64,000 nucleotides of DNA from positions 1 to 64,000 of the forward strand of contig JAAYHJ010000063.1 in assembly GCA_012735465.1 (NCBI GenBank), given 5' to 3'. How positions within the stretch are numbered: position 1 is the stretch's first letter; each line of letters starts with the position of its first letter. The stretch is from Clostridiaceae bacterium (GTDB taxonomy: Bacteria; Bacillota; Clostridia; SK-Y3). Shown here one piece after another: positions 16,214 to 58,323 of the stretch. The notes beneath the pieces are model-generated. The model was not told the origin of the DNA. It saw nothing but the letters and a program-made list of their open reading frames with translations, and searched no databases. The position numbers were made by a program, and so were the translations under genes.

Positions 16214-16305
16214 GTATTCATTCCTTCCTTAAATTTTGCTAACCTTTAATTCTTAGAACCTCTTTTCTGATTTTTCAAGATACTTAGGGTTATATACCAT
16301 ATATG

Positions 16306-16317
16306 GAACTTATGTTC
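16306..16317 (-). promoter_or_regulatory. LexA (SOS/Cheo) box at the rnhB operon promoter
   Basis: GAACTTATGTTC is a perfect GAAC-N4-GTTC palindrome, the same form as the boxes at lexA/yneA in this window. It lies directly downstream of the -10 at 16320-16325, so it covers the predicted start site. A LexA dimer here would block rnhB transcription. Confidence 0.65.
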
Positions 16318-16319
16318 TA

Positions 16320-16348
16320 ATCATATCATTCATGGTAACTTTTTGCAA
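16320..16348 (-). promoter_or_regulatory. Promoter of the rnhB operon
   Basis: Reading the minus strand, TTGCAA (16343-16348) is followed by 17 bp and then TATGAT (16320-16325) with an extended -10 TG. It lies about 107 bp before the rnhB start. The long leader between holds the LexA box and the palindrome CCATATATGG. Confidence 0.65.
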
Positions 16349-16480
16349 CTGTTTTAGATAACAAATAGGAGCGTTCATCTTTCTGCCACAGAAGCGGAGC
16401 CTTCTCATTAAAATTTGGAAAATATCAAGTAAGTCGATATAATGCTGATATGATTAAATTGAAATTTACAAACAAAGAAC

Positions 16481-57508: not shown

Positions 57509-57520
57509 GAACAAACGTTC
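57509..57520. promoter_or_regulatory. LexA box 1 (yneA side)
   Basis: GAACAAACGTTC is a perfect GAAC-N4-GTTC palindrome downstream of the yneA start site. Confidence 0.88.
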
Positions 57521-57532
57521 TTGATGGATATT

Positions 57533-57561
57533 ATATTATCAGAACATTTGTTCTTAGTCAA
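57533..57561 (-). promoter_or_regulatory. Promoter of yneA
   Basis: On the minus strand TTGACT (57556-57561), 17 bp and TAATAT (57533-57538) form a promoter. Its spacer is occupied by LexA box 2. Confidence 0.75.
57542..57553. promoter_or_regulatory. LexA box 2 (inside the yneA promoter spacer)
   Basis: GAACATTTGTTC is a perfect GAAC-N4-GTTC box within the yneA -35/-10 spacer, so bound LexA would block RNA polymerase. Confidence 0.9.
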
Positions 57562-57582
57562 TATATTTTTCAAAAAAATTCC

Positions 57583-57594
57583 GAACATTAGTTT
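57583..57594. promoter_or_regulatory. LexA box 3 (on the lexA -35)
   Basis: GAACATTAGTTT matches the box with one deviation and overlaps the lexA -35 TTGATA by two bases. This is the expected site of autoregulation. Confidence 0.75.
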
Positions 57595-57678: not shown

Positions 57679-58323
57679 ATGCATAAAGATTTAACCGAAA
57701 AACAACAAGCTATACTTGATTTTATTAATAAGCAAATTAAAGAAAAAGGATATCCCCCCTCTGTGAGAGAGATATGCAGTGCAGTTGGACTCAAGTCTAC
57801 TTCCACGGTCCATGGACATTTGGCAAGGCTTGAGAAAAAAGGGCTTATACATAAAGATGCTTCTAAGCCCAGGGCATTAAAGGTTATAGAAAGCAGGTTG
57901 GCACGAAGCAGTCCTATAACATCACCCTTAGGCCGTTTTTATTCCGAAGAAATAATAGATGTTCCTATTGTGGGTAAAGTCACTGCGGGCCAGCCTATTT
58001 TGGCTGTTGAAAATATAGAAGGTACTTTTCCCCTTCCCGTTAAATTTGCAGGTAATAGCGAACTATTTGCACTGAGGATAAAAGGAGACAGCATGATTGA
58101 TGCCGGTATATTGGATGGAGACCTGGTAATTGTACAAAAACAAAGCGTGGCACAAAATGGTGAGATTGTTGTAGCTCTCATTGGTGATGAAGCAACGGTA
58201 AAAAGGTTTTATAAGGAAAAGGGATATTTCCGTTTGCAACCAGAAAATAAGTACATGGACCCAATCATCGTTAAAGAGGTTTCTATACTTGGCAAAGTTA
58301 TTGGTATATTTAGAAGACTATGA
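57679..58323 (+). CDS. lexA: LexA repressor
   Basis: SOS repressor that self-cleaves when stimulated by RecA filaments. The 214 residues have an N-terminal winged helix ([44 protein letters not shown]). The cleavage site is Ala103-Gly104 (KVTAGQPI), and the catalytic pair is Ser138 (GDSMIDAG) and Lys174 (EATVKRF). ATG 57679 is used. The in-frame GTG 57667 overlaps the Shine-Dalgarno GGAAGGG. It is divergent from yneA with three LexA boxes between them. Confidence 0.97.

Follow-up and report, generated by a model that had tools for sequence, protein, structure and literature searches.

A palindrome in a duplicated promoter segment ahead of rnhB is a plausible lineage-specific LexA operator in a Clostridiaceae bacterium

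The LexA (Cheo/DinR-type) box of Firmicutes such as Bacillus subtilis and Clostridioides difficile is the palindrome GAAC-N4-GTTC (PMC4234289), and a perfect copy of it stands ahead of rnhB in a Clostridiaceae bacterium, within the window analyzed here (the whole stretch of 64,000 nucleotides of contig JAAYHJ010000063.1). Is this copy a LexA operator, and would it place RNase HII under SOS control? The first-pass annotation had described a perfect box directly after the -10 of a TTGCAA-17-TATGAT promoter reading into rnhB, and both this arrangement and its coordinates proved right. The palindrome, GAACTTATGTTC on the plus strand (16306-16317), reads GAACATAAGTTC on the minus strand, where it is preceded by a -35 hexamer (TTGCAA, 16343-16348), a 17-nt spacer, a -10 hexamer (TATGAT, 16320-16325), and the dinucleotide TA, and followed by 92 nt up to the ATG of rnhB (16213). 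The putative operator lies 2 nt downstream of the -10. The promoter scan rates this promoter as a 9/12 match only, with a TG ahead of the -10 (extended -10). Downstream on the minus strand are rnhB itself (RNase HII, PF01351, 15437-16213), a ylqG-like gene with a FliK C-terminal domain (PF02120, 14174-15418), a ylqH-like gene with an FlhB C-terminal domain (PF01312, 13874-14170), yraN (UPF0102, PF02021, 13513-13887), and a membrane dipeptidase gene of peptidase family M19 (PF01244, 12529-13491). Because these genes are closely spaced (gaps of -14 to +21 nt), they plausibly form a single operon; its upstream, divergent neighbor is an aminotransferase gene. A second candidate operator, GAACCTCTTTTC at 16256-16267, was rejected, as it has one mismatch and falls outside the ten best matrix scores of the window.

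LexA, including its DNA-binding domain, is encoded within the window (lexA, 57688-58323, plus strand; PF01726 DNA-binding domain and PF00717 S24 peptidase). The interval between the yneA-like gene (minus strand) and lexA (plus strand) holds three LexA boxes, GAACAAACGTTC, GAACATTTGTTC, and GAACATTAGTTT (57509-57594), which served as reference sites; they had earlier been taken to share one form, which is true of the two perfect boxes, whereas the third, GAACATTAGTTT, has one mismatch. Like the known Firmicutes boxes, the rnhB site is the same palindrome laid over a promoter start, in a genome whose LexA and RecA genes carry such boxes. It differs from them in that rnhB and yraN would be the controlled genes, and in that its flank and one inner base are off consensus: in GAACTTATGTTC, one side carries T instead of R (GAACT, or A before GTTC), and one flank is G/C, without the usual A/C flank. 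The R/Y inner bases and the A/C..T/G flanks of the LexA consensus are a preference, not an absolute requirement.

We scored the site with a matrix built from 60 lexA and recA boxes of relatives, for which the lexA and recA upstream regions were taken from up to 30 relatives; the lexA and recA boxes of the genome itself were included and the rnhB site was left out. The rnhB box reached 15.3 bits, the 17th percentile of the 60 real boxes (range 9.8-20.9). Sites scoring like it are expected by chance approximately 3 times per Mb with this matrix, or about 0.2 times in the window, where the next-best non-lexA site scored 9.3 bits. With a matrix of only five own-genome sites, the score was 13.5 bits and the density 5.3 per Mb. 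The lexA region of a class-level relative (G009) contains the identical 12-mer, GAACTTATGTTC, twice, so at least one LexA system accepts the unusual inner bases of the rnhB box. The same kind of deviation from the consensus is seen in a minority of real boxes, for example CGAACTTATGTTCG at the G009 lexA.

A box just after the -10 is a frequent layout, not a universal one. In the same genome, the SOS promoters of recA (TTGACC-17-TATAAT) and dinB (TTTACA-17-TATAAT) also have the box after the -10, at 6 and 9 nt, respectively, versus 2 nt at rnhB; they differ in matching the promoter consensus at 11/12 positions instead of 9/12, and in box scores of 17.9 and 19.7 bits, respectively, versus 15.3 bits. 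The dinB box (L060, G000:C8:26353-26364) lies 29 nt before the start of the gene, which encodes an IMS polymerase. A promoter 0-10 nt from the site occurs by chance at approximately 7% of random intergenic-like positions, and it was seen at none of six in-gene box look-alikes. The lexA boxes and two further boxes discussed below (L008 and L082) likewise have no promoter at 0-10 nt by this criterion. The combination of score and position found at rnhB is unlikely by chance.

The box lies in a duplicated promoter segment (16294-16383, minus strand), which the first-pass annotation had not foreseen. This segment of approximately 90 bp has one further copy in the genome (G000:C39:18805-18895), which is 84% identical (alignment score 63.5, against at most 24.5 after shuffling); weaker similarity runs on to about 16463. 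In the second copy the box is identical and the promoter is better (TTGATA-17-TATAAT); an omega-RNA-like IS605 right end and an AEC-type transporter gene follow it. Although the copies differ at 16 of 92 alignment columns, both retain the same box, the same 20-mer around it, ATTAGAACATAAGTTCCATA, and a second, upstream block, CTATTTGTTATCT. When the differences are placed at random, the chance of box survival is 0.09 and that of the longest identical run is 0.17; we regard these values as weak evidence for selection, and the rnhB and C39 copies as one event, not two independent observations. The exact 20-mer was found in none of 390 other class genomes and in no viral contig, and matches to it with two mismatches are about as frequent in the class genomes as for the reversed control.

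Conservation of the box upstream of rnhB in relatives, which had been proposed as a check, turned out against the earlier reading: none of the 29 relatives compared, five of them from the same family, has a box ahead of rnhB (within 500 bp upstream, or as far as the contig reaches). The best rnhB-upstream score in these five genomes is 1.2 bits, and only one relative, a distant genome, exceeds 6, with 9.2 at position -463. As positive controls, 18/20 lexA and 16/26 recA regions of relatives contained a perfect or one-mismatch box; within the family, three boxes were present in 4/4 lexA regions and a perfect box in 5/5 recA regions, compared to 0/5 for rnhB. The nearest relatives compared have RnhB proteins 58-66% identical, in a set that includes no other genus member, and at this distance the gain of the box may be recent or older within the genus. 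Hairpins followed by T-rich stretches were seen by eye between the ylqF-like gene and rnhB in G001 and G002, so rnhB probably has its own, boxless promoter in these genomes. Peripheral SOS genes vary between species, so conservation at the same gene supports membership and does not define it.

The absence of the box in relatives favors an explanation in which a chance palindrome lies in the promoter segment, has no LexA function, and occurs twice because duplication or capture of the segment carried it along. The genome-wide counts, which come from pattern searches, point the same way. Perfect GAAC-N4-GTTC occurs 22 times in the genome (2.32 Mb, 98.6% complete, approximately 38% GC judging by the sampled loci), mostly within genes; the reversed-pattern control occurs 31 times, and Markov sequence yields approximately 7 sites per Mb. 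With no enrichment of the bare pattern, the box by itself is no proof. Five look-alikes scoring at least as high as the rnhB box are inside genes, and about 0.8 intergenic sites of such a score are expected by chance genome-wide, assuming an estimated 0.3 Mb of intergenic sequence. The listed intergenic sites of at least 15.2 bits are those at lexA (three), recA, and dinB, and the rest are the rnhB/C39 pair (one event), L008, and L082, the GAACNNNNGTTY sites being those among the matches listed (contigs to 92). The survival values given above for the two segment copies would also fit an absence of selection. Against this stand a score in the range of real boxes and a position like that of the recA and dinB boxes, and we consider a chance palindrome unlikely, though it deserves serious weight. 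If the site were of this kind, it would be a warning that the perfect core is at chance level in a 38% GC genome.

The site could also be the operator of another repressor, acting on both copies, that is, on the rnhB promoter and on the promoter before the omega-RNA-like remnant and the AEC transporter. The retention of the 20-mer and the upstream block in both copies is consistent with this, and the genome offers a parallel: another perfect GAAC-N4-GTTC (L004, G000:C8:2800-2811), with a 12/12 promoter and the box 8 nt after the -10, adjoins a gene of the arsR family and probably serves as an operator for ArsR, hence a false positive in LexA box scans. Because this palindrome has the promoter layout too, the two together do not identify LexA. 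It resembles the rnhB site in being a perfect palindrome next to a sigma70 promoter, but it adjoins its own presumed regulator gene, has TGAAC..GTTCA flanks, and scores only 11.4 with the LexA matrix. At neither segment copy does a candidate regulator adjoin, and the 20-mer does not recur in the class genomes above the control level, which makes another repressor quite improbable. Far less probable still is that the conserved segment acts as a regulatory RNA, or as the end of a mobile element, instead of as a promoter with an operator. Its second copy does precede an IS605-type right end, but the segment has no Rfam match and shows no folding advantage over shuffled sequence (z -1.1 to +0.6), and a riboswitch or other RNA element was rejected on these grounds. 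A phage, plasmid, or viral origin was also rejected, with no matches in phages, plasmids, or viral contigs, as was a left end of the genome's IS605-type element, with no similarity at its tnpB locus (C78).

We favor the reading of the rnhB palindrome as a lineage-specific LexA operator, with a probability of roughly 0.6; the position raises these odds, and the non-conservation and the low-end score reduce them. The rnhB operon is a plausible new SOS target. The original LexA-type reading keeps the support of the score, the G009 core, and the recA/dinB-like position, and loses that of conservation. Damage induction of the rnhB operon is somewhat less likely than LexA binding. LexA on the palindrome would cover the transcription start of the operon promoter and keep RNA polymerase off; upon DNA damage, RecA-stimulated self-cleavage of LexA would then increase transcription of rnhB-ylqG-ylqH-yraN-dipeptidase. 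The operator may have come with, or arisen in, the promoter segment that the genome carries twice. For rnhB, LexA binding, repression, damage induction, and any physiological benefit are inferences from the sequence.

Ribonucleotides are inserted into DNA by SOS polymerases, and their removal begins with RNase HII (in E. coli with Pol V; PMC3493448). The full texts of LexA studies in C. difficile (PMC4234289) and Streptomyces venezuelae name no rnh or RNase gene. If the LexA reading is true, SOS control of rnhB would connect SOS polymerases and ribonucleotide removal directly at the level of regulation, the poorly understood YraN would gain a DNA-damage context, and the duplicated segment would illustrate a one-step route into the SOS regulon, whereby a gene acquires an operator-bearing promoter. 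A wider proposal, which is tentative and on balance doubtful, is that a lineage-specific LexA promoter makes RNase HII and the nuclease-fold YraN damage-inducible, coupling ribonucleotide removal to DinB synthesis, and that the same cassette also puts the AEC transporter/solo omega-RNA-like locus in the SOS regulon.

Several other loci were noted. A top-scoring LexA box, AGAACAAATGTTCT (20.0 bits; L008, box at 1501, G000:C18:8013-8024), is intergenic and lies 256 nt before a 151-aa ORF without a Pfam match, a candidate SOS gene. Another high-scoring LexA box, of 18.9 bits (L082, box at 1499, G000:C45:15098-15109), is just ahead of a Y1/IS200-like transposase gene that is apparently frameshifted. 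The IS605 right end at the second segment copy (L010/L129, G000:C39:18805-19040) is a solo omega-RNA-like element without tnpB, directly downstream of the segment and upstream of the AEC transporter gene; it has a weak RAGATH-18 match and resembles the right end following the genome's own tnpB (74%) and the G055 copies (81%). The tnpB locus itself (L128 1100-2760, G000:C78) is a degraded IS605-type element in which an omega-RNA-like right end comes after a tnpB that has an early stop; an apparent remnant of TnpA is also present. A further omega-RNA-like element that stands alone, the 4 kb inspected there containing no tnpB, is found in a same-family genome (L127, G002:C19, ~304500-304570), directly upstream of a gene whose product starts MASLKLKNVY and is probably a transporter ATPase.
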